A stretch of 64,000 nt of DNA from Emticicia aquatilis (GTDB lineage Bacteria; Bacteroidota; Bacteroidia; Cytophagales; Spirosomataceae): positions 248,001 through 312,000 of the forward strand of contig NZ_BMKK01000005.1 in the NCBI RefSeq assembly GCF_014644295.1, written 5' to 3'. This document shows positions 1 to 47,026 of this stretch, piece by piece (within the stretch, counting starts at the first letter, position 1; each line of letters starts with the position of its first letter). Both the position numbers and the translations under genes were made by a program. A model generated the notes under the pieces. It was given only the letters and a program-made list of their open reading frames with translations. It had not been told where the DNA came from and did not search any database.

Positions 1-2354
1 TTACTTTTATCAATTTCAACTGGTCCAAAACCATTAGTACTTGACACAGCTGTTAAGTCTGAAACATAAACCTGAGCACTACCCCCAGAATTAGCTTTAG
101 CTACAAAATCAATCTTTGAGCTTGGCGTAGCATTATTTCCTAAGTCAATGGCTTTTACATAACATTCAAAAGATTGATTTAAGATGCTTGTCTGAGAAGT
201 GTATTGATAAGAAAGCGTTTGAGCATTTACAATAGCTTTGGATACTCCATTGACAAATATCTCATAAGAGTTAATACCAGTATTATCAGAAACACTATTC
301 CATGATAAATTGAATGAGTTATTTGTAATATTATATACTTTAATTAATGGCTCATCGGGCGGAGTAATATCACTTGGATTACAGTTAGGATAAATGTCTT
401 TTATGGAGGTCGTTGAAAGTCCATAAGAGTCTGTTACTCTTAACGTAACTCTGTAAAAATACAAGTGTCCATCACACGGTACAATTTCAAGATTCACCTG
501 CGAGGTTTGTCTTGTTACATCTAAAGCAGGGTGTGAGTGGTCGTCGTGATATAAACGGACTGTCCAACGATAAGTAAGTTGACTACTGGCTTCTTCGTTG
601 TCAGAAACTTGTGCAGAAAGGGCAATAATATCAGTGCCATTGTTATTGAAGAAATTAATAGCATCAACACTGGTAGAGTTTATAACTGGAGGTGTATTAT
701 TGAGCGAGATAATAGTAGAGGTTGTATCTGTCAGCCCACCTTCATCAGTAACAGTAAGCAAAACCTTAAAAGCCTGTGGATTTGACGAACCATTATCAAA
801 TGTATGAGAAGGGTTCACTCCACTTCCAGTCTGTCCATCACCAAAATCCCATGTGTATGTGAGAGTACCTGTATTTTCAGGGTCAGTAGAGGCCGAAGCA
901 TCGAAAGTAACATTTAAAGGCGAAGTTCCATTTTTAGTACTTGGTGTAAATTTTGCCGTTGGAGCAATATTAGTACCTAAAGTATAGTAAATTCTACGAA
1001 TTTCCTGTGGGTCTCCTTCATTGAAACCTAATTTCACATAATAAAGTGCTTGGTCAGCTGGGTTATAAGCCAAAGTTACAGCTCCAAGAGCGATTGTATT
1101 CAAATCTCTAAATGATGTTGGGTTCTCGTTATTATCAAACGAAAAGCTCTTAATCCAACCAGGAGTAAAGTCAGCAAAAATATAAGAGTTACGGTATTCT
1201 TCTGGAAACGCCGTACCTGTGTACCAAACTCCTCCGATAGAACACGTACCTGTAAAGTTACTGCCAGGAAATTCGTCAGAACCAATCGTATGAGCCATAT
1301 CATTAATGATTACTCGAGCAGAAATGTCTTCTTGAGAGCCTTCGTGTATCCATTCTACGGTTGGTTTTTTGTAAGTTGCAGGTGTATAAGTCGGATTTGA
1401 CCACAACGTCGGTCTATCATTTCCTTCATAAATCGGCCACCCAAAATTTTGCCCTCCTTGGGTAATGATATTTAATTCTTCACGGTTATTCCAACCAACT
1501 TCTCCGATATACACTATCCCAGGTGAGCCAGAGTTAGGTCTTACTGAAAGTCTGAAAGGATTTCGGAATCCTAACGCCCAAACACGAGATTGAGCCGAGC
1601 GAGGAGCATTTGAATCATAAAACGGATTTCCTCCTACTCCATCACCAGTGTTAGGGTCAATTCTAAGAATTTTCCCATTAAGAGAGTTTATCATCTGACA
1701 ACGATATACCCTATCTTCGACATTTTCAGCCTCTGATAAAATCCCATCAGCCAATGCTTCGCCATCATAATCAATACCGAGACCACCATCACCACTACCA
1801 ATAAACAATGTTCCATCATTACCAAAAGCCATACCTCCACCAGCATGATTTGTGCCTGTAATTGGAATACCTGTCGATTTTGTTTCACCCAAAAGTACTA
1901 ACCTTGAACCATAATCAACCGTAGTTGGGGTTTGCGGAGTAGGTGTTGTATATCTTGTTACACGAGCAATAGTTGCTCCTTCAAGCGAGGTATTAGGGTC
2001 GTATCCCTCAGTGCCATAGTTTAGTAAATAATGCCTATCAACAACATAATATAAATAAACATGACCATTATTGATAAAATTGGGGTCTAATGCAAAACCT
2101 AAAATACCATAATCTCCATATATGGCAACTTCTTCCGAAATATCAATAAATAAAGTTTTTACATTATTTTCAACTACATATACTTTCCCATCTTTCTCCC
2201 AAACATACATTTTACCATTAGCATCGAATGTCAATCCTGTTGGGTTTTGCCAATTATTAGAGTGTAGTTGGTCAACAAAGCCATTTGGAACTTGAGCTTT
2301 GCTTACAAAAGTTGTGAATATTGAAATAATAATTATTTGTAAGAGTTTCCTCAT
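1..2354 (-). CDS. Secreted glucose/sorbosone dehydrogenase-like protein with PKD, FN3 and NPCBM domains (3' end missing)
   Basis: The reading frame is open from ATG at 2354 to the left edge, so the C-terminus is missing. A signal peptide (about residues 1-20, ending SKA) leads into a GSDH-type six-bladed propeller to about residue 450, with NHAGGGMAFGNDG, IGSGDGG and FRNPFRLS motifs typical of PQQ-dependent soluble sugar dehydrogenases. A PKD domain (about 462-545, with YTWDFGDGQ), a further Ig-like segment, an FN3-like segment (NLSWNSVSDN) and the start of an NPCBM domain (YVSDLTAVSSTNGFGP) follow. The family oxidises sugars in the periplasm or outside the cell; substrate and PQQ use are inferred. 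The added domains suggest carbohydrate binding. A type IX sorting tail may lie beyond the edge but cannot be seen. Confidence 0.85.
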   Translation of the reverse strand, partial: MRKLLQIIIISIFTTFVSKAQVPNGFVDQLHSNNWQNPTGLTFDANGKMYVWEKDGKVYVVENNVKTLFIDISEEVAIYGDYGILGFALDPNFINNGHVYLYYVVDRHYLLNYGTEGYDPNTSLEGATIARVTRYTTPTPQTPTTVDYGSRLVLLGETKSTGIPITGTNHAGGGMAFGNDGTLFIGSGDGGLGIDYDGEALADGILSEAENVEDRVYRCQMINSLNGKILRIDPNTGDGVGGNPFYDSNAPRSAQSRVWALGFRNPFRLSVRPNSGSPGIVYIGEVGWNNREELNIITQGGQNFGWPIYEGNDRPTLWSNPTYTPATYKKPTVEWIHEGSQEDISARVIINDMAHTIGSDEFPGSNFTGTCSIGGVWYTGTAFPEEYRNSYIFADFTPGWIKSFSFDNNENPTSFRDLNTIALGAVTLAYNPADQALYYVKLGFNEGDPQEIRRIYYTLGTNIAPTAKFTPSTKNGTSPLNVTFDASASTDPENTGTLTYTWDFGDGQTGSGVNPSHTFDNGSSNPQAFKVLLTVTDEGGLTDTTSTIISLNNTPPVINSTSVDAINFFNNNGTDIIALSAQVSDNEEASSQLTYRWTVRLYHDDHSHPALDVTRQTSQVNLEIVPCDGHLYFYRVTLRVTDSYGLSTTSIKDIYPNCNPSDITPPDEPLIKVYNITNNSFNLSWNSVSDNTGINSYEIFVNGVSKAIVNAQTLSYQYTSQTSILNQSFECYVKAIDLGNNATPSSKIDFVAKANSGGSAQVYVSDLTAVSSTNGFGPVEIDKS

Positions 2355-28667: not shown

Positions 28668-30551
28668 ATGCTTAATAAGTCCATTATACTAACTTTATTA
28701 TGCTTATTTGGGATTATTTCACCCCCTACTTTGTCGCAAGGACCTTCTATACCCGACAGTTTATATAACAAGGTTGTATCACTAAAAAAGCAACTGCCTT
28801 CAGATAAACGCAATAAGCAAATACTAACTCTTTTTTTTGAATTAATCATTCACTATCACCCAACTATGAAGGGCCACTGGCGTGATTCACTATATATCTA
28901 TTCCAAGAGTTTTAAATCTGAATATGGAAAAAATCTGAGTGGGCTTGCCAAAGCAGAAAGACTATACCAAGAAGGAAATATCAAGGAAGGCTCCGAAATA
29001 TTTCTTGAATCAATATCAAACCTTGAAAAAACTAATAATTATGCTCAAGCATCTTTTGGTTTATTACGTCTTGGTTCTGCAAAAGAAAGTATGGTTCAAA
29101 ATAGTCATGATAAAACCTATCCAATTTACTATTCTAAGGCATTAACGTTAGCAACTAAATCTGAACAAGCAGCATATTTGGTTTTAGCGTGGGGCTACAT
29201 TGCTGACTGGCACTTAGAAAAACAACAATTCAATGAAGTGGTAAAGACAAGCTTTAAAATGCTTGATATAATTGCAGAGGATAAGACTTATTCTGCAACA
29301 CAGTATTTGGGTGCTGCCTATAAATATTTAGGGTTTGGATACTTAGGTTTAAAAAATATAAGTAAAGCGGAAAAGTATCTGAATTTGGCAAGAATATGGA
29401 CACGAAGTCCAGGTAGAAGTTTATATTTAGATTATTCCATTCGTAAGAGCCTTGCCGAATATTATTATAAATATAAACACCATAGAAAAGCATTGGCTCA
29501 GATTGATAGTGCCATAGTAACTTTATCTAATTGGAAAGCTAACACAAAACTTGTTGATGCAGATAAATATCTAAGTAACGTTTACGAACTAAAGTATAAA
29601 TGCTTAAAAGATTTAGGGCAAACAGACTCCGCTTTGATATACTTAGAAAAACTTAATACTCAGACAAATTTGAATATAAAGAATGAATTAGATAAAAGCT
29701 ATCAAGAGTTTCATGAAAAATATAGCCTAAAAGAAAAAGAAGTTAAAATAATTGAACTAAACAATAAGTCATTAAAACAAGAAAACCATATTCGTAATTT
29801 ACTGATTTTTTTCCTATCTTCAGTGCTACTACTTTCTATTATCTTAGCTATTGTACTGCATCGTTCATTAAAATTAAGGCAAAAAAATATTGAGTTTTCT
29901 TTGGAATTGGCTCAAACTCAAAACCAAATGATAAAAAAGGAAATCCAAACTCAGGAAACCGAACGCCAACGCCTTGCCAAAGACCTACACGATGATTTGG
30001 GGGGTACACTTTCGGTCATTAAAGGAAAAATAGCCAACGAAAAAGTCAGTCAAGAAGCAATTAATTTGGTGGAACAGGCCATTGAGGATTTAAGGTATAT
30101 CTCTCGCAACCTCTCTCCCCCAGAACTCGAAAACGATGGACTCATAATTTCAATAAAAAACACCATTGATAGAGTTCAAAATGTGTCAAATATAAAATTT
30201 GCTTTTATTACTTTCGGCGAAAAACAAAAATTAAATCAAGATATTAAACTAAATATTTATCGAATAATCACTGAATTAATCAATAACATCCTAAAACATT
30301 CTAAAGCTCAAAATGCTATCATTCAGTTAATCTATTATCAAGAATCTCTACAGATTTTGGTCGAAGATGATGGAATCGGTATAAAATCTGATAAAAATAA
30401 TTGGGGAATTGGACTAAAGAATATAAATTCAAGGGTCGAATTTTTGGGGGCAAAACTTGATATTGATTCGGGTGCCAAGGGAACGACTGTAATTATAGAA
30501 TTACCCTTAAAAGTAAAAAATAATGAAGCCCAGACTGCTAATAGCAGATGA
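28668..30551 (+). CDS. TPR-containing sensor histidine kinase (HisKA_3/NarL type)
   Basis: A 627-residue sensor. A signal peptide (ILTLLCLFGIISPPTLSQ) is followed by a periplasmic domain of TPR-like helices (about 30-340), a coiled segment, one membrane helix (about 375-397) and a cytosolic kinase. The phospho-acceptor is His441 in LAKDLHDDLGGTLSV, typical of the HisKA_3 dimerisation domain, and the ATPase has ELINNILKHSKA (N-box), VEDDGIGI (G1) and NWGIGLKNI (G2). Such kinases pair with LuxR-type regulators, and the next gene overlaps by 29 nt and is one. The ligand is unknown; TPR sensors are frequent in Bacteroidota. Confidence 0.92.
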   Translation: MLNKSIILTLLCLFGIISPPTLSQGPSIPDSLYNKVVSLKKQLPSDKRNKQILTLFFELIIHYHPTMKGHWRDSLYIYSKSFKSEYGKNLSGLAKAERLYQEGNIKEGSEIFLESISNLEKTNNYAQASFGLLRLGSAKESMVQNSHDKTYPIYYSKALTLATKSEQAAYLVLAWGYIADWHLEKQQFNEVVKTSFKMLDIIAEDKTYSATQYLGAAYKYLGFGYLGLKNISKAEKYLNLARIWTRSPGRSLYLDYSIRKSLAEYYYKYKHHRKALAQIDSAIVTLSNWKANTKLVDADKYLSNVYELKYKCLKDLGQTDSALIYLEKLNTQTNLNIKNELDKSYQEFHEKYSLKEKEVKIIELNNKSLKQENHIRNLLIFFLSSVLLLSIILAIVLHRSLKLRQKNIEFSLELAQTQNQMIKKEIQTQETERQRLAKDLHDDLGGTLSVIKGKIANEKVSQEAINLVEQAIEDLRYISRNLSPPELENDGLIISIKNTIDRVQNVSNIKFAFITFGEKQKLNQDIKLNIYRIITELINNILKHSKAQNAIIQLIYYQESLQILVEDDGIGIKSDKNNWGIGLKNINSRVEFLGAKLDIDSGAKGTTVIIELPLKVKNNEAQTANSR

Positions 30552-31143
30552 CCATACACTATTTAATGAAGGTGTAAAACAACTTATCTCTGACCATTAC
30601 AACATAGTCGGGCAAGTATTCGATGGAAAAGATGTATTGATAATGGCTATGGTCACAAGGCCCGATGTGATTTTACTGGATATAAATTTACCATCAATCA
30701 ATGGTTTTGATTTGGCAATAGAGCTAAGAAAATCATTTGAAACTATCAAGATTATTTTTGTTTCTATGTACACCGAACCACGATTTATTGAACAGTCGAA
30801 ACAATTAAAAGTAGATGGCTATTTACTAAAAAACTCAACTAAAGAAGAATTGATTCTTGGTATTGATAATGTATTGAATGGTGGAAATTATTATGACCCA
30901 AAACTAAATCAGCTTCGACCAAACCTCCATCATGATGATTTTTTTGTAAAACAATTCTCGTTGACTCCACGAGAAGTCGAGATAATCAGAATGATTAAAA
31001 ATGGTATGAATACTGGAGAAATTGCCGAAAAACTGTTTCTGGGTCTTGAAACCGTCAAAACGCATCGAAAAAATATCTATTACAAACTTTCGATTACCAA
31101 ATCGACTGAACTTATCAAATTCGCTTTAGAAAATAATATTTGA
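30523..31143 (+). CDS. NarL/FixJ-type response regulator
   Basis: A 206-residue regulator with an N-terminal receiver (LLIADDHTLF; phospho-acceptor Asp53 in LLDINLP; Lys in YLLKNS) and a C-terminal LuxR-type helix-turn-helix (LTPREVEIIRMIKNGMNTGE, IAEKLFLGLETVKTHRKNI). It overlaps the end of the sensor kinase gene by 29 nt, so the two are translated together and form one two-component system. Targets are unknown; the genes near it do not show an obvious regulon. A hairpin terminator follows. Confidence 0.93.
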   Translation: MKPRLLIADDHTLFNEGVKQLISDHYNIVGQVFDGKDVLIMAMVTRPDVILLDINLPSINGFDLAIELRKSFETIKIIFVSMYTEPRFIEQSKQLKVDGYLLKNSTKEELILGIDNVLNGGNYYDPKLNQLRPNLHHDDFFVKQFSLTPREVEIIRMIKNGMNTGEIAEKLFLGLETVKTHRKNIYYKLSITKSTELIKFALENNI

Positions 31144-40102: not shown

Positions 40103-41254
40103 TCAATTATTTCCTAAAACACGCCAAACTTGGTCAGTACCATCATAGATTAGCATACAACCGCTATTGGGCTTTACATTTACTGATAAATCAAGTATCC
40201 AGCCCCCATTTTCGGCAAATACAATTCTATCGGAGGCAGCTACATTGGCAAGCGGATAATTACCCCAAATTTTAAGGGTTGTAGTGCTATTAGTCATAAC
40301 AGTTAGTATGAGTCCATCGACACCACCCGAAATACCATTCAAATTTACTGTACCATTGCCTCGAAACATGATTACTGACTTTCCATTTCGATTTAAAGCA
40401 TTAAAAGAAACCTCATTTGAAGAGTAATTTTTGGTTTCGATGCCTAATTGCAAATCACCCATTACCGATAATTTAGACTGTGGGTTTGCATCGCCAATTC
40501 CAACATTTCCGTTTCCTTGAATAACCATTTTTTGAGTAGCAGTACTTGTACCACTTTGTGTGGTATAAAACTGCATATCGGCTCCTGTGGCAGTTGTTGT
40601 CCAGTTTTGGTTAGCTACCATATCAATTCTGGCTCGTGCGGTCGTATAATCGACTGAGTTATGCCCTTTTCCACCAAAACGAGCCAATATATTACCTGAA
40701 GTGGTAGGATAAGGCAAGATATTTGACCCATTCGCACTAATACCAAAAATTGATGGAGCGTCACCAGCATACCGATATACCCCAATACCTTTATCACTAT
40801 CTGATGGTTGTTGTACTTCAAGCTGATGGTCAGGTTCGGTGACAAGATAATTTCCTATTCCTACTTTTCCATTATGATTTATAAACAATCGACTCGATGT
40901 CAATGTGGTGTTATTTTGAGTCACATAGATTTCAGCCCGTGTTCCTTGGTTATTTGCATTCCAATTTTGAGTAGCGGTAAATCGCAAAGCAGCATTGAGT
41001 GCTGTAAAACTTCCACCAGCATACCCCCTACCTTCAACACTCAGAAGCGTGTTACCGTCTTGTGTTGCCGAAGGGTTGGCATGAGTGCCATTGATGCGAA
41101 TTCCTACGATATTAGGAATAGCTGTACTTCGCAAAAACACGTTTTCATAATTGGTATAATCTGCATCTATTTTATTGGGGCGAATCGTGATATTTTGGGC
41201 ATTGACCTGCCAAGCTGCAAAAGAGATAATACAAACTTTAAGAAATCGATACAT
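40103..41254 (-). CDS. Secreted tail-fibre-like module protein (two modules)
   Basis: About 383 residues from ATG 41254 (MYRFLKVCIISFAAWQVNAQ signal peptide); an in-frame upstream ATG lies inside the previous gene and is less likely. It has two copies of a module of about 115 residues with pattern PTA....LL...GRGYAGG.F...A..R....NW......G....F....N......RL.INHNGKVGIG, the second ending KMVIQGNGNVGIG. A C-terminal beta-strand part ends GCMLIYDGTDQVWRVLG. These NGNVGIG motifs occur in phage tail fibres and Bacteroidota surface proteins. The S74 chaperone domain of the first gene is absent here. It is the last of three tandem paralogues. Confidence 0.8.
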   Translation of the reverse strand: MYRFLKVCIISFAAWQVNAQNITIRPNKIDADYTNYENVFLRSTAIPNIVGIRINGTHANPSATQDGNTLLSVEGRGYAGGSFTALNAALRFTATQNWNANNQGTRAEIYVTQNNTTLTSSRLFINHNGKVGIGNYLVTEPDHQLEVQQPSDSDKGIGVYRYAGDAPSIFGISANGSNILPYPTTSGNILARFGGKGHNSVDYTTARARIDMVANQNWTTTATGADMQFYTTQSGTSTATQKMVIQGNGNVGIGDANPQSKLSVMGDLQLGIETKNYSSNEVSFNALNRNGKSVIMFRGNGTVNLNGISGGVDGLILTVMTNSTTTLKIWGNYPLANVAASDRIVFAENGGWILDLSVNVKPNSGCMLIYDGTDQVWRVLGNN

Positions 41255-41268
41255 ACGGATATTGTTAT

Positions 41269-42417
41269 TTATTTTTGTAGGCCGATAACTCTCCATCTCT
41301 GAAAAATATGGTCGTAGATTAAGGTACACCCTCCACGACCTGATATTTGAATATTAGGCGATGCAAATGGCTCGCCTGTAATAATTCTTTGACCTGCGTT
41401 AACATCTGGCGACTCATTCTGGATTTCGAGATTAGAGTCAAATTCATTGTGCCAAATTATATGTAATACGAGTCCCTCTTTTCCGTCAGTTATACCTTTG
41501 ATAAATCTACTTGCATTGTCTGTCAATAAAATTACTGACCTATCATTTCTATCTAATAAACCAGTACCTCCTGGCGGTGTTGAGAAATTATCCTGCATAT
41601 CAAAAGAAAAATCACCAGCCAATCTCAATTTAGTAATTGGCGAATCGGTGCCAATACCTACATTTCCATTACCATTAATTGTCATTTTTACTGTTGGGGT
41701 GGTGGTTGCACTTTCGGTGGTATAAAACTGCATTTTGGCACTTGTAGCCGTACTTGTCCAGTTTCCGTTGGCAACCATATCAATTCTGGCTCGGGCAGTT
41801 GTAAAAGAAGTGCCATCATAACCTTTTCCGCCAAATCGGGCTAAAATGTCATTATCTAATGTAGCAGTAGGTAATAAATAATTGCCTCTTGCACTTAGTC
41901 CAAAACAAGCTGGTGCATCACCACCGTAACGATAAATTCCCATACCTTTATCATCGTCAGTTGCTTGCTGAACTTCAAATTGATGGTCGGGGACAACGTT
42001 TAATGAATGATAATATTCCCCCACACCGATTTTCCCATTGTGATTGATATAAAGCCTGCTTCTGAAAGATGTTTCTCCATTTTTATTAGTAAAAAACTCC
42101 ATTCGTGAGCCTTGACTACCAGCATTCCAGTTTTGCGTAGAATACATCCGAACACCCGCACGCATGGTTGTAAATCCAGCTCCTCCGTATCCTCTTCCTT
42201 CGATACTCAACAATATTTGGTTTTCATTTACGGCTGTTGGCGAAGCATGAGTTCCATTCAATTTCATTCCGATGATATTTGGGAAATCGGTGTTTCTAAT
42301 GAAAATATTTTCATTCGTGTTATAATCAGTTTCAATTCGGTTTGGGCGAATTGTGATTCCCTGCGAAAATCCTTCTAAAGAAATTCCTAAGCTAATAATG
42401 CAGAGTAGTTTTTTCAT
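41269..42417 (-). CDS. Secreted tail-fibre-like module protein (two modules)
   Basis: A 382-residue paralogue of the next gene. Signal peptide MKKLLCIISLGISLEGFSQ. Two modules of the same repeat (GRGYGGAGFTTMRAGVRMYS, ending LYINHNGKIGVG; then FGGKGYDGTSFTTARARID, ending MTINGNGNVGIG) and the same final strand (GCTLIYDHIFQRWRVIG). It overlaps the stop of the gene before it by 4 nt (ATGA), so it is coupled to it. The role is probably an extracellular or surface fibre; no enzyme motif is visible. Confidence 0.8.
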   Translation of the reverse strand: MKKLLCIISLGISLEGFSQGITIRPNRIETDYNTNENIFIRNTDFPNIIGMKLNGTHASPTAVNENQILLSIEGRGYGGAGFTTMRAGVRMYSTQNWNAGSQGSRMEFFTNKNGETSFRSRLYINHNGKIGVGEYYHSLNVVPDHQFEVQQATDDDKGMGIYRYGGDAPACFGLSARGNYLLPTATLDNDILARFGGKGYDGTSFTTARARIDMVANGNWTSTATSAKMQFYTTESATTTPTVKMTINGNGNVGIGTDSPITKLRLAGDFSFDMQDNFSTPPGGTGLLDRNDRSVILLTDNASRFIKGITDGKEGLVLHIIWHNEFDSNLEIQNESPDVNAGQRIITGEPFASPNIQISGRGGCTLIYDHIFQRWRVIGLQK

Positions 42418-43946
42418 GGCATTTTATCCGTTTTAATTTTATTATTTGCCTCAACACCAGATAGCCTATTTTTGAGTAATTCAATTTCTCTTTTTTGCTC
42501 ATCAATCAGTTCTTTCAAAGCTTTGATTGACTCTACAAACATTGGGTCGTAATCTCCATAAGCAGTCATCAAATATCCATTCGGGTCTTCTTTGATTTTT
42601 GTAGGAAAAACTTCTTTTATTTCTTGAGCAATGAATCCATATTGGATACCTGTGGGACGCTTAGTACCTGTTTTCGTATCGTTCCATTCATAAGTAACTC
42701 CTTTGAGATTCAGCACTTTTTGTAGCATTTCTTGGCTATTTAGATACAAAATATTCGTTTTTAGACGTCTGTCTGAATGCGACGACCAGTTTCCTGCTGT
42801 ATTTTTGGCAGCATCGCCCTCTACTTCAAGTCTAAAACCAGCCGTTGGAAGCCTTCCGATACCTAAATTACCGGGGGCAGAGAGTGTCATTTGCACTTGC
42901 GGAGTTGTTGTTGATGCAGGAGTAGTCGAAAAGTCAATGGCAGTAGGTGTATTTGTACTTGTCCAATTATTAGCAACCCTAAAATCAATTCTGGCTTTTG
43001 CATTTGTGAAACCAGCTCCATCATGTCCTTTTCCACCTAAACGCATTAAAATTTGGTCATTCAGAGAAGCACTTGGTATATTGCTATTTCCGCCAGCTTC
43101 AACTCCAAAAATAGTTGGGATTCCAGAGAATCTTTTCACAGCAATTCCATCATCATTATCTGCCAAAACTTCCAAGTAATGAGCTGGAGCAGTATTATTA
43201 ATACCAATATTACCATTTTCGGCAATCGTCATTCTTCTCAATGGTGTATCGCCGTTGATTGGAGCTGTATAAAAGTTGATTTCAGAGCCATTTTCGGCAC
43301 TTTGCCAGTTTTCTTTTGCTCTGATTTCAATTCTGGCACCTTCTTCAAAATAGCTTCCATTATGCCCATGACCTTCAAATCTTGCCAAAATTTGGTCATT
43401 AGTTGAGGCCGTTGGAGTAGTCTGGCTTCCGCTTGCTTTAGCTCCAAAAATATGAGAGTTGAAAGAATTACCATTTCCAAAGCTTTTTACCCCAAAACCT
43501 CCATTGCCGACGACCTCTAATTCGACTTGCGGAGAACTGGTTCCAATTCCTACTTTCCCGTCATGATTGATTACCATTCGTTCAGTGTTCGATAAAGTCC
43601 CGTTTGCTGTTGTATAAAAGTAAATAGCTGTTCCAGTGGTAGTGGTAGTCCAGTTTTCTGTACTTTGAAACCGCAAAGTAGCCCCTGACACAAAATTACT
43701 TCCGTCGAATCCTTGAGCTCTCAAGTCTAATAAAGTATTATCATTTATAACAGCCGTAGGAGTATCGAAAGAACCATTATACCGAACCCCGCTAAGATTT
43801 GGGTTTTGAGAGGTTTTTATTGTTAAATCATCTACACCACTTTTATTGACAGAAATGTTTGATGGTGTAAGGGAAATACTTTGAGCAAAACTCGTTAAAC
43901 TCAAATATTGTCCTAAAACAATGAGGTAAATTCTTATATTTTTCAT
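42414..43946 (-). CDS. Tail-fibre-like protein with C-terminal S74 chaperone domain
   Basis: A 510-residue secreted protein with signal peptide IRIYLIVLGQYLSLTSFAQ. Three copies of the module are followed by a C-terminal Peptidase_S74 (intramolecular chaperone of endosialidase) domain: WSSHSDRRLKTNILYL, the Ser-Asp site HSDRRLK and GFIAQEIKEVFP, and a final coiled coil (LIDEQKREIELLKNRL). In phage fibres this domain helps three chains fold and then cuts itself off, so a trimeric fibre is likely. It is the first of three paralogues and may supply the trimerisation seed, while the others lack the domain. It lies 40 nt after the LytTR gene. Confidence 0.9.
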   Translation of the reverse strand: MKNIRIYLIVLGQYLSLTSFAQSISLTPSNISVNKSGVDDLTIKTSQNPNLSGVRYNGSFDTPTAVINDNTLLDLRAQGFDGSNFVSGATLRFQSTENWTTTTTGTAIYFYTTANGTLSNTERMVINHDGKVGIGTSSPQVELEVVGNGGFGVKSFGNGNSFNSHIFGAKASGSQTTPTASTNDQILARFEGHGHNGSYFEEGARIEIRAKENWQSAENGSEINFYTAPINGDTPLRRMTIAENGNIGINNTAPAHYLEVLADNDDGIAVKRFSGIPTIFGVEAGGNSNIPSASLNDQILMRLGGKGHDGAGFTNAKARIDFRVANNWTSTNTPTAIDFSTTPASTTTPQVQMTLSAPGNLGIGRLPTAGFRLEVEGDAAKNTAGNWSSHSDRRLKTNILYLNSQEMLQKVLNLKGVTYEWNDTKTGTKRPTGIQYGFIAQEIKEVFPTKIKEDPNGYLMTAYGDYDPMFVESIKALKELIDEQKREIELLKNRLSGVEANNKIKTDKMP

Positions 43947-43986
43947 CGGAATAAAGTTTAGAAGATAGATAAATTATAGTTTATAA

Positions 43987-44316
43987 TTATTGCCTAAAGT
44001 TTGAAATTGCATTAGCTACTTTATACAATCTCCTTCTCGAAACCACCGTTTCGAAACCATCCATGAACCGAATATGTGACTCATGAACAGTGAAAAAATT
44101 TTCTAAAAAATGTATATTTACCATACATGATTTATTGACTCTCACAAAGGGTATGCTGAGGTCTTTTTCATAGGCTTTGAGTGTCCGGGCAAGGATTAGC
44201 TTGTCGCCAGAAGTTAAAACAAGGTGGCTGTAATTAATGTCAGCTTCTATCCGAATGATTTCTTCGAGGTTTACCTTGTTTTTAGAGTTTGGATGAAGAC
44301 TTTTAAATGTTTTCAT
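43987..44316 (-). CDS. Stand-alone LytTR DNA-binding regulator
   Basis: A 109-residue protein consisting of a LytTR domain only: EEIIRIEADINYSHLVLTSG, RTLKAYEKDL, FVRVNKSCMVNIHFLENF and VVSRRRLYKV. It has no receiver and no membrane part. It is the first gene of the tail-fibre cassette (40 nt before the 510-residue gene), so it probably controls this cassette and itself. It is divergent from the second two-component pair across 165 nt, and a regulatory link between the two is plausible. Effector sensing is not obvious. Confidence 0.88.
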   Translation of the reverse strand: MKTFKSLHPNSKNKVNLEEIIRIEADINYSHLVLTSGDKLILARTLKAYEKDLSIPFVRVNKSCMVNIHFLENFFTVHESHIRFMDGFETVVSRRRLYKVANAISNFRQ

Positions 44317-44481
44317 GTTTCTGCTATTTATTTAATACAAATCTCAGAAATAGCAATAAACCAAAACATCGTGTAAATAAGGAGATTTTGCCGTTTAATA
44401 AATTTTTTGGTACTTCAAGCCTCCAATACTGCCTAAAGTCAGCCATTATTTATATTTTTCATCAAATTCAAATTCTCAGAA

Positions 44482-45132
44482 ATGATAAAACTGTGCTTAG
44501 TCGATGACCACGAATTATTATTGAAAGGATTGGCCACTATCATTGATACTCAGGAAGATTTTTCGGTAATAAAAACTTGTCTGTCGGGTAATGAATTACT
44601 TGATTGGCTGGCACAAACCACCGAAATCGACGCTTTGATTTTGGATGTAAACCTACCAGATTTTGATGCCGAGGAATTATTGATTAAAATCCGAAAAATT
44701 AACCCGAAAGTACCCATTCTTTATCTAACTATTCTGCGAGGCTCTCGGATGTTTCATAAGCTTCGGAAACACTCTTTTCAAGGGTATTTATTGAAAGACA
44801 CTTCTTATGATATTCTTTTTGATGCCATTCGGACGATAAGCAGCGGTGGTTTTTATTATTCGGATGATATTGATTTGAATTTCTCGAAAGATGAATCAAT
44901 CCACGAAAGTTCGTATATCAATAAGAGTTCGGCGGTGGTGTTGAGTAATCGAGAAAAACAAATTTTAAAACTTATTTGTGAAGAATACAGCAGCTCGCAG
45001 ATTGCAGAAAAGCTTTTTGTGAGTGTCAGCACCGTAGATACACACCGACAAAACATGATGATAAAACTCGGTGTAAGCAATACTGTTGGCTTAGTAAAGT
45101 ACGCTTTTACGTATGATTTAATCCCCAAATAA
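44482..45132 (+). CDS. NarL/FixJ-type response regulator
   Basis: A 216-residue regulator: receiver with LVDDHELLLKG and phospho-acceptor Asp55 in ALILDVNLPD, Lys in YLLKDTSYD, and a LuxR-type helix-turn-helix (LSNREKQILKLICEEYSSSQ, IAEKLFVSVSTVDTHRQNMM). The kinase gene starts 7 nt downstream, so they form a pair. It is divergent from the LytTR/tail-fibre cassette and could act on the same promoter region. The next kinase is of the HisKA type, which is less usual for NarL regulators, and this makes the pair slightly atypical. Confidence 0.92.
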   Translation: MIKLCLVDDHELLLKGLATIIDTQEDFSVIKTCLSGNELLDWLAQTTEIDALILDVNLPDFDAEELLIKIRKINPKVPILYLTILRGSRMFHKLRKHSFQGYLLKDTSYDILFDAIRTISSGGFYYSDDIDLNFSKDESIHESSYINKSSAVVLSNREKQILKLICEEYSSSQIAEKLFVSVSTVDTHRQNMMIKLGVSNTVGLVKYAFTYDLIPK

Positions 45133-45139
45133 ACAGCCC

Positions 45140-47026
45140 ATGAAATCAAAAATCTATTTCATTTTTTTGGTTTTTCTTACTTTTCAGCTAAAAGCTCAAG
45201 ACAAACTCGATAGTCTTCAAAAAGAGATTCCAAAAGCTAAACATGATTCTATTCGACTGAAAATCTACACACAAATCATCAAATCCGCCTTATATTCAAA
45301 TCCTCCTCTTTCTAAAACTTACGCCATCAAATTTGATTCAACCGCCACTTTGCTCAATAAACCAGAAGACATCGCCTTCGGCAAAAATTATCTGGGCATG
45401 GTTCATTACGTGGGTAACGAGCATCTTACGGCTATCAACTATTATTTAGATGCTATCAAACGCTTCGAGCAACTCAATAATCAATATCGGGTTGGAATTG
45501 CCCTCAACAATATTGCGGCCTGTTATCAGTTTCGTGAAAAACCACTCCAAACGATTGAATACTACAATAAAGCTTTGGTGATTTTCAATAAACTCAACGA
45601 AACCACTTGGATTGGTAATGTTTCGCACAATATTGCCAACGAATACCATAAACTGGCAAGCAAAGAAGTTGATAAAAAACTCAAGGAAAAATATTTGGCC
45701 GAAGGGCTTAAAAATGAGCAAGTTGCGATAAGGAGTTTTGAGAAAAACAAAGACACATACTCTATCGGGTTGTCGAATATTACTTTTGGAAATTTGGAAT
45801 TTGTAAAAGCAAACTTTCAAAAAGCCATCGAATACTATAAAAATGCCGAAAAGCTGATTCCTGCCCAAGATGACCCCGAATCGCTTGGCATGGTCTTTCA
45901 AAACATTGGTAATGCTTTATATGAAACAAAAAAATACGATGAGTCGATTGATTACTTAAAAAAAGCCACTAAAATATTTGATGAGATTAAGTCTTTGCCT
46001 TCTAAAAAAATCACTTTAGATATTCTTCTACGAGATTATTACGAGAAAAAAGACTACAAAAATGCCTTTGAAACTCAGCGAGACTTTATCGAATTGAGCG
46101 ATAGTCTTTTCAATCAAGAAAAAGATGCCGCCATGATTGATGTACTGAAAAAATACGAATCTGATAAAAAAGAACAAGAAAATAAACTACTCAATCAACA
46201 ACTCGAACAGCAAAAACAACGGCAATTAGCCTACCTAATTGGCTTGGTGGGTTTGGTACTTTTTTCGAGTATTATCATCTATTTTTGGTATAAAAACCGC
46301 CAAAAAGGTATTTTAATTGAAAGTCAAAATCAAAAACTATCCGATTTGAACAAAGAAAAGAATAATCTGATTAGTATGGTTTCGCACGATTTGAGTACGC
46401 CATTCTTGACGATTAAAACATGGAATAATATATTGAAAATGAGCTTAAAAGATAATCCAAAGGCTTTAGAAGCCACCGAGGTAATTCAACAAAGCTCTGA
46501 AAGCGGTATTACGCTCATCAAAAAAATATTGGATGTCGAAAAAGCCGAAACCAATCAGCATGAGTTAGCCCTTGAATCTTTTGATTTGACCGATTCGGTA
46601 AAACAAGTGAAGGCAGAGTTTGAAGAAATTGCCAAAACCAAAAACATAGCTATTTTCAGCGTTTCAAGCCCTAAGAACATACAAATTTTATCTGATAAAC
46701 ATCTGATAAACAGAGTTTTAGAAAACCTAATTTCCAATGCCCTTAAATACTCAAATCCTAACTCAAAAGTCTGGATAACCACCGAAGAACTAAGCAATAG
46801 AGTATTATTGAAAGTAAAAGATGAAGGCATTGGGATATCTGAAGATGATATACCTAAACTATTTACAAAATATGGTGTTTCCACCTCCAAACCCACCGCA
46901 GGTGAGTCGTCAACTGGCTTAGGGCTAAATATTGTGAAACGGATTTTAGATGAAATTGGCGGAGAAATAAGCTGCGAAAGTCAACTTGGGGTAGGAACAG
47001 AATTTACAGTTTCGATTAAAAAATAA
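45140..47026 (+). CDS. TPR-containing sensor histidine kinase (HisKA type)
   Basis: A 628-residue sensor with a signal peptide (FLVFLTFQLKAQ), a periplasmic TPR array (about 60-330: IALNNIAACYQFREKPLQTI; MVFQNIGNALYETKKYDESI), a coiled region rich in Lys/Glu/Gln, a membrane helix (near 365-390) and a cytosolic kinase. His416 in MVSHDLSTPFLTIK is the phospho-acceptor; NLISNALKYSN, VKDEGIGI and STGLGLNIVKRI are the N, G1 and G2 boxes. It pairs with the upstream regulator. The TPR input probably senses a periplasmic protein. A terminator shared with the convergent gene follows. Confidence 0.93.
   Translation: MKSKIYFIFLVFLTFQLKAQDKLDSLQKEIPKAKHDSIRLKIYTQIIKSALYSNPPLSKTYAIKFDSTATLLNKPEDIAFGKNYLGMVHYVGNEHLTAINYYLDAIKRFEQLNNQYRVGIALNNIAACYQFREKPLQTIEYYNKALVIFNKLNETTWIGNVSHNIANEYHKLASKEVDKKLKEKYLAEGLKNEQVAIRSFEKNKDTYSIGLSNITFGNLEFVKANFQKAIEYYKNAEKLIPAQDDPESLGMVFQNIGNALYETKKYDESIDYLKKATKIFDEIKSLPSKKITLDILLRDYYEKKDYKNAFETQRDFIELSDSLFNQEKDAAMIDVLKKYESDKKEQENKLLNQQLEQQKQRQLAYLIGLVGLVLFSSIIIYFWYKNRQKGILIESQNQKLSDLNKEKNNLISMVSHDLSTPFLTIKTWNNILKMSLKDNPKALEATEVIQQSSESGITLIKKILDVEKAETNQHELALESFDLTDSVKQVKAEFEEIAKTKNIAIFSVSSPKNIQILSDKHLINRVLENLISNALKYSNPNSKVWITTEELSNRVLLKVKDEGIGISEDDIPKLFTKYGVSTSKPTAGESSTGLGLNIVKRILDEIGGEISCESQLGVGTEFTVSIKK

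Follow-up and report, generated by a model that had tools for sequence, protein, structure and literature searches.

A cassette of three tandem genes in Emticicia aquatilis encodes secreted proteins built from one repeated, tail-fibre-like module, and raises the question of whether these proteins are what is left of a virus or belong to an adhesion system that the bacterium controls. The cassette lies in a stretch of 64,000 nucleotides (nt), positions 248001-312000 of NZ_BMKK01000005.1, within the 6.75-Mb genome of this member of the Spirosomataceae (G000, contig C5); the whole stretch is called the window here, and coordinates are those of the window. Besides the fibre genes P3, P2 and P1, the locus contains a gene for a stand-alone LytTR protein and a divergent pair of genes for a NarL-type response regulator and a TPR sensor kinase. 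With a probability of about 0.68, we read it as a MAT-like adhesin operon of modular, probably trimeric surface fibres, controlled in the manner of FimS/FimR and with LytTR as a switch transcribed along with them. Since the set recurs in related bacteria with the same switch sequence in the DNA, the cassette gives the impression of a genuine adhesion system under regulation, as opposed to leftover virus.

The operon runs on the minus strand. Its first gene encodes a LytTR DNA-binding protein of 109 amino acids (aa; 43987..44316), with the LytTR domain over residues 14-104 (49.3 bits against a Pfam cut-off of 22.6), and is followed after 40 nt by P3 (42414..43946, 510 aa), which overlaps P2 (41269..42417, 382 aa; open reading frame (ORF) list and alignments) by 4 nt. 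The preliminary description of this DNA gave short or overlapping junctions, which were confirmed with one correction, at P1 (40103..41254; ORF list, module alignment and pairwise comparison): its 408-aa ORF reaches a GTG at 41329, inside P2, and the likely start is the ATG at 41254, which gives a protein of 383 aa with the signal peptide MYRFLKVC...AQ and a gap of 14 nt to P2. Facing this strand across 165 nt are, on the plus strand, the NarL/FixJ-type response regulator (44482..45132, 216 aa; Response_reg and GerE by Pfam and NCBIfam) and, 7 nt further on, the sensor kinase (45140..47026, 628 aa), with a signal peptide, a TPR region, one transmembrane segment, HisKA and HATPase. Gene content and positions agree with the preliminary description, and LytTR, Response_reg with GerE, and TPR with HisKA and HATPase were confirmed by Pfam.

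All three fibre proteins are secreted and share the module, which a module search found three times in P3 (modules 1, 2 and 3 at 43506..43826, 43164-43496 and 42816-43148), twice in P2 (41965-42312 and 41617-41946, spanning 41617..42312) and twice in P1 (40808-41146 and 40457-40789, spanning 40457..41146), all on the minus strand. The copies measure 109-116 residues, close to the 115 first estimated, and their seven-row alignment has 10 invariant columns; the first copy begins at residue 39 in P3, at residue 36 in P2 and, counted from its ATG, at residue 37 in P1. As had been noted before, the S74 chaperone/protease domain is confined to P3, where Peptidase_S74 (PF13884) scores 63.1 bits against a cut-off of 22 (42600..42776, minus strand; Pfam profile and alignment), with SDRRLK as its SDxxxK motif and a C-terminal tail behind it. 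The motif is kept in 11 of 11 S74 proteins chosen for alignment, including all six of the same genome. P1 and P2, whose overall identity is 49%, have in common, where P3 has S74, a C-terminal region of about 100 aa, the cap (about 41272-41562 on the minus strand in P2, from the P1/P2 comparison), for which PDB and PHROGs gave no convincing homologue.

The module's best matches of solved structure are MAT fibres of Bdellovibrio, led by 8oml (E 4.8e-16 for P3 and 1.2e-17 for a P1/P2 profile) and followed by 8on4, 8ond and 8ol4. According to the available text of PMC10769870, 8oml and 8on4 are Bd1334, 8ond is Bd2133 and 8ol4 is Bd2439; the MATs of Bdellovibrio bacteriovorus form trimeric fibres displayed on the cell surface (13 have S74 and 8 lack it), self-cleavage by S74 was demonstrated for Bd3182, the tips of non-S74 MATs fold independently, and one MAT fibre was shown to bind glycans. 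P1-P3 resemble this superfamily, as far as it is described there, in having a signal peptide, the fibre module, S74 (SDxxxK) and non-S74 members side by side, and diverse tips. They differ from it in being shorter (about 380-510 aa against typically about 1000), in lying in an operon with regulators alongside, and in having a host among the Bacteroidota.

The claim of a regulated, non-phage surface-fibre system gains support from the recurrence of the set of fibre, LytTR, NarL-type regulator and TPR kinase in other genera, together with a promoter-like element. Four genomes of genus g41 have a three-module S74 fibre gene with LytTR behind it and, divergent from it, genes for a TPR kinase and a NarL-type regulator; the fibre protein measures 514 aa (478 aa in the gene call for the draft L232), and three of the four cassettes have a small secreted protein ahead of the fibre gene. 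The g41 regulators are 67-68% identical to that of the window; among the matches shown, those of E. aquatica (49%) and Jiulongibacter (46%) come next and no other exceeds 37%. P3 reaches 55-60% identity with the four g41 fibres and 63% with that of L231, from the same genus, and the C-terminal part of the kinase is 58-59% identical, the sensor part far less. In E. aquatica (G007, L118) the operon has the order S74-LytTR-three secreted proteins, with regulator and kinase at its other end. At Lacihabitans L189 a LytTR operon has similar flanking genes and three S74 genes upstream, one of them two genes from LytTR; at Jiulongibacter L177 a LytTR operon has three secreted proteins, and a further S74 gene is divergent from a NarL-type gene. 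LytTR thus heads the cassette in the window, as stated at the outset, but it is last in the four g41 genomes and second in E. aquatica; judged by these alignments, it is an exchangeable component of the cassette.

The 165-nt intergenic region aligns with its g41 counterparts in two blocks, one of which is the 19-bp element TATTTACACGATGTTTTGG (44361..44379, minus strand; intergenic alignment and pattern search in 150 genomes). It is exact in three of the g41 genomes and has one mismatch in the fourth, and the chance of such a run between two regions is about 1e-6 by an independent-base estimate. The exact 19-mer occurs at four places in 150 family genomes (the window, G050, G080 and G068), all upstream of this operon. 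One-mismatch copies are found at three places: before the same operon in G147, just before the S74-LytTR-three-secreted-protein operon of E. aquatica, and in G053, 43 nt before a gene for a secreted protein of 1012 aa, with a NarL, a TPR-kinase and a LytTR gene at the same locus. Allowing two mismatches adds 42 places. Of the 28 examined, 19 are inside called ORFs longer than 120 aa; the other 9 are not, and one of them precedes a stand-alone LytTR gene of G041 by 20 nt. At up to two mismatches the pattern has 49 places in all, and its reversed version, the control, has 22. At L118 and L228 the element is inside or at the edge of a called ORF extension ahead of the signal-peptide start. A -7-like box, GAGATTTG (44338..44345, minus strand), lies 16 nt after the element's TTTG and 21 nt before the LytTR start codon. 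The TTTTGG of the element is -33-like, and together with the kAnnTTTG-like box 16 nt on it resembles the -33/-7 consensus of Bacteroidota promoters. Since the element stays with the fibre operon when regulator and kinase move, the comparison suggests that it is the operon's own switch.

Within the own genome, the module is not spread at random away from the regulator, the outcome that the preliminary description had named as speaking against it. The fibre genes (S74 and/or module) group into 9 clusters, 7 of which have a stand-alone LytTR within about 3 kb, whereas none of 20,000 random placements gave more than 4, in a permutation that assumes uniform placement and a 3-kb limit chosen after the data were seen. 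The two clusters without a nearby LytTR are C2:723.8k and C1:364-367k; at C1:361-367k a regulator and TPR kinase are divergent from three fibre genes, and LytTR is absent. The cluster at C20:4-9k mirrors the geometry of the window, with regulator and kinase divergent from LytTR-S74, its LytTR being frameshifted and its kinase without a TPR-profile match. NarL-type (GerE) matches number 31 in this genome and lie within 3 kb of 4 of the 9 clusters. There are 61 LytTR matches, and 34 fetched regions contain 32 short LytTR ORFs (73-166 aa), 6 of which have an S74 or module gene as immediate neighbour (6/32, against 1/75 controls; 0/48 against 1/147 in the named set). By a crude signal-peptide rule, a secreted gene adjoins stand-alone LytTR in 19/32 cases against 29/75 in the own genome (p 0.04) and in 18/48 against 28/147 at named loci (p 0.009), with controls from the same regions. 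Adjacency of stand-alone LytTR genes to secreted genes in general thus holds only modestly; gene-calling in the analysis scripts was likewise crude, and the signal-peptide rule misses real ones, such as that of P3.

Two of the fibre-linked LytTR genes, at L046:5119-5379 (G000:C20, 5.1 kb) and L069:7355-7576 (G000:C1, 274.9 kb), are frameshifted near the C-terminus, and the conserved SRRR end stands in another frame in both, which may reflect decay, sequencing error or phase variation. Stand-alone LytTR genes also lie beside large secreted proteins with a GC-tail C-terminus (L042, L048, L052, L060 and L068), and the three of these proteins that were checked (L048, L052 and L060) all match GCX_COOH there. 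These neighbours suggest a wider LytTR-adhesin family.

A search of 150 family genomes with P2 matched 34 and found a full-length relative at 47% identity; an earlier contig scan with P1 and P2 had given no relative, which means little given the later find. From the better P2 matches, 20 module regions were picked by P2 similarity and contig, not strictly as the top 20. LytTR is the immediate same-strand neighbour of the module gene in 10 of them (L228, L229, L230, L232, L235, L239, L240, L241, L245 and L246) and one gene away at L242. L246 (G082:C10:41000-60000) has three tandem units of LytTR and a capped one-module fibre gene, with NarL and kinase genes between them, and is an array of repeated cassettes in one genome.

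Several results weigh against reading the locus as a MAT-like operon with its own LytTR switch. The other 9 of the 20 module regions (L227, L231, L233, L234, L236, L237, L238, L243 and L244) have no adjacent LytTR; L231 is a contig of 3.5 kb, and a gene for a kinase or a NarL-type protein lies close by at L236, L237, L238 and L243. Among 60 S74 regions fetched from ten other genomes, a sample that included 20 of the 22 clusters of E. agri (G008) and left out the S74 loci of order-level genomes, LytTR is the immediate same-strand neighbour of S74 in 6 (L118, L119, L124, L125, L145 and L155) and divergent from it in 2 further regions (L104 and L140). S74 alone therefore does not predict LytTR, and a link of S74 as such to LytTR was rejected; in the S74-rich Emticicia sp. 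BO119 (G001), Emticicia sp. C21 (G002) and E. agri, the count is 4 of 48. The window LytTR is only 33-34% identical to that of the g41 cassettes, and where the element occurs in G053 the regulator has only 32% identity to that of the window. As for the fibres, Pfam and NCBIfam detected no outer-membrane export signal in P1-P3. Module 1 starts about 17 residues after the signal peptide, and the domain of about 130 aa that all 21 MATs carry after their signal peptide, in the available description (PMC10769870), has no room in these proteins, where its place is taken by a short tag, Q[SNG][IV]x[IL]xP. For this reason we call P1-P3 MAT-like and do not file them as members of the superfamily.

The tag, Q-[SNG]-[IV]-x-[IL]-x-P, opens mature P1, P2 and P3 alike. 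In the slightly wider form Q-[SNG]-[IVL]-x-[IL]-x-P it is present in 11 of 14 S74/module proteins of the own genome and in 8 of 141 other secreted proteins; the same N-terminal tag is found in 11/89 against 9/235 in relatives and in 2/5 against 9/263 in the named set, so that it was rejected as a general feature of S74 proteins. Near LytTR it is enriched in the own genome (p 0.017) and in relatives (p 0.001), and not significantly in the named set (p 0.08). It may serve as an anchor or as the first strand of the trimer.

The resemblance to viral fibres has to be weighed first among the other explanations. P3 has the S74 domain and SDxxxK in common with phage S74 tail fibres, the endosialidase chaperone and the ICA domain of MyRF; PHROG tail-fibre profiles match P1, P2 and P3, and phage tail fibres are 25-37% identical to P3 over part of its length, up to 37% over 29% of the query at the S74 end among the 15 of 293 records listed. 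These matches are what would be expected of a decayed or domesticated tail-fibre set of a phage, tailocin or contractile-injection system with regulators as accidental neighbours, which we consider extremely unlikely. P1, P2 and P3 bear signal peptides, which phage fibres are not known to have. Unlike phage S74 fibres, P3 is a secreted bacterial protein with no phage genes seen nearby, none were seen (mostly by eye) around the other inspected cassettes, as the preliminary description had reported for the window, and different genera have kept both the gene order and the promoter-like element. Viral contigs, scanned for close relatives, contained none of P3, and a plasmid collection gave one weak match to P2 (39% over 20% of P2), in a Rhabdochlamydia plasmid; prophage origin was rejected on these grounds. 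It is improbable, if less strikingly so, that the three proteins function chiefly as secreted matrix or cargo binders and not as adhesive fibres. That would accord with an export route and anchor that are not established for P1-P3 and with the beta-propeller, Fib_succ_major and GCX_COOH proteins that LytTR cassettes also carry, but the closest relatives of known structure are surface-displayed fibres, one of them glycan-binding, in the available text of PMC10769870. The earlier proposal that the S74 protein seeds assembly is not supported, and we think it very unlikely that P1 and P2 enter mixed fibres for which P3 acts as seed or chaperone. The three proteins share one operon, the module and the N-terminal tag, and capped and S74 genes occur together at L073 and L242; yet P1 and P2 bear their own cap, capped genes stand without a detected adjacent S74 gene at L045, L227, L235, L238 and L246, and independent folding is reported for the non-S74 MAT tips.

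What controls the operon is a separate matter, and LytTR might be its direct, sole regulator, an autoregulated switch like that of the LRS, with the NarL/TPR-kinase pair controlling something else. The available text of PMC6193735 describes LRS sites as 9-12-9 direct repeats, and the locus resembles the LRS in having a LytTR-only regulator in an operon whose relatives have direct repeats of about 21-nt period upstream. Repeats of period 20-22 precede 18 of 88 LytTR operons against 64 of 1068 controls when pooled (p 1.5e-5), with 9/31 against 18/192 in the own genome (p 0.005), 8/48 against 16/412 at named loci (p 0.0016) and 1/9 against 30/464 in S74 regions of relatives. Repeats of type TTCAAAATGAG, with a 21-nt period, stand before LytTR genes in L060 and in L178, L181, L182, L198 and L200, and are likely the LytTR operator. 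Enrichment at LytTR-operon promoters, and the presence of LytTR at 7 of 9 fibre clusters and of a NarL-type gene at only 4, favour sole control by LytTR. Before the window LytTR, however, no period-21 repeat (9-(11..13)-9) was found, the best having 6 of 9 matches, and self-regulation by LytTR is therefore not supported at this operon, another point that counts against a LytTR switch here; the 19-mer is conserved instead. The regulator and P3 are strongly co-conserved between genera and LytTR is not, and the neighbours are secreted fibres and the regulator/kinase pair in place of the adjacent membrane inhibitor gene of the LRS. We regard sole control by LytTR as rather unlikely.

Control of the MAT-like operon by the divergent pair has a known counterpart. 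The best NCBIfam model for the kinase is FimS (202.3 bits against a cut-off of 600), and the kinase has the TPR sensor, transmembrane segment, HisKA and HATPase of that protein. In the available text of PMC11053733, FimS/FimR of Porphyromonas gingivalis is likewise a TPR sensor kinase system controlling surface fibres in Bacteroidota, and FimS is thought to sense an envelope cue for the fimbriae. The kinase of the window scores below the equivalog cut-off and is hence no FimS equivalog, and the genes opposite it encode MAT-like fibres and LytTR in place of FimA fimbriae. It has an N-terminal signal sequence (by eye) and a single hydrophobic segment at about 361-385, and the TPR part is therefore placed in the periplasm. 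In the mechanism that we propose, the kinase, with its presumably periplasmic repeats, would sense an envelope cue and phosphorylate the NarL-type regulator, which would act at the 19-bp element in the -33 region and probably switch on LytTR-P3-P2-P1. LytTR would be a second switch, most likely for positive feedback or for cross-talk to other LytTR-linked secreted-protein cassettes of the genome. P3, as the S74 member, would trimerise and then cut off its own C-terminal chaperone, and P2 and P1 would be non-S74 members with an alternative tip at the end, displayed on the surface to bind a presumed target.

Other loci add observations beside these. In E. aquatica (L118:2515-7352), S74-LytTR is followed by three secreted proteins of 521-525 aa that carry the tag and resemble one another at the N-terminus. 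One of them was scanned and has matches to beta-propeller SBBP repeats; the three are possibly tip variants. A second arrangement also recurs: in Emticicia and relatives, LytTR follows a gene for a protein of 853-889 aa at L170, L172-L175, L179, L180, L183 and L186-L188. About 9 kb ahead of the cassette, at 28668-31143 on the plus strand, the window has a second pair of genes, one kinase-like by eye and the other for a NarL-type regulator; no link between this pair and the cassette was seen.

In the open-access literature searched, we found no report on stand-alone LytTR in Bacteroidetes, on LytTR in Cytophagales or on LytTR with tail fibres in Bacteroidota; among papers on LytTR, adhesins and regulators in Bacteroidetes, no title concerned such a system. 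With this locus, phage-like modular fibres of the kind described for a predatory bacterium are seen in regulated operons of Bacteroidota as well. The fibres are tied there to a particular promoter sequence and to a sensor and a switch protein, which makes adhesin choice directly testable; the genome's short LytTR genes, about 30 of them, provide a family of parallel cases. More tentatively, the surface repertoire of the Spirosomataceae could possibly be organised so that each operon for a modular secreted fibre or adhesin brings an exchangeable LytTR switch of its own, in some cases joined by a TPR-sensor/NarL pair and by a promoter element private to the operon. The TPR sensor, which diverges fast, might in that case follow how its own fibre is exported or folded, giving one-sensor-one-adhesin control over the choice of phage-like fibres on display. 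The frameshifts in two fibre-linked LytTR genes hint that such cassettes may also be switched off genetically.

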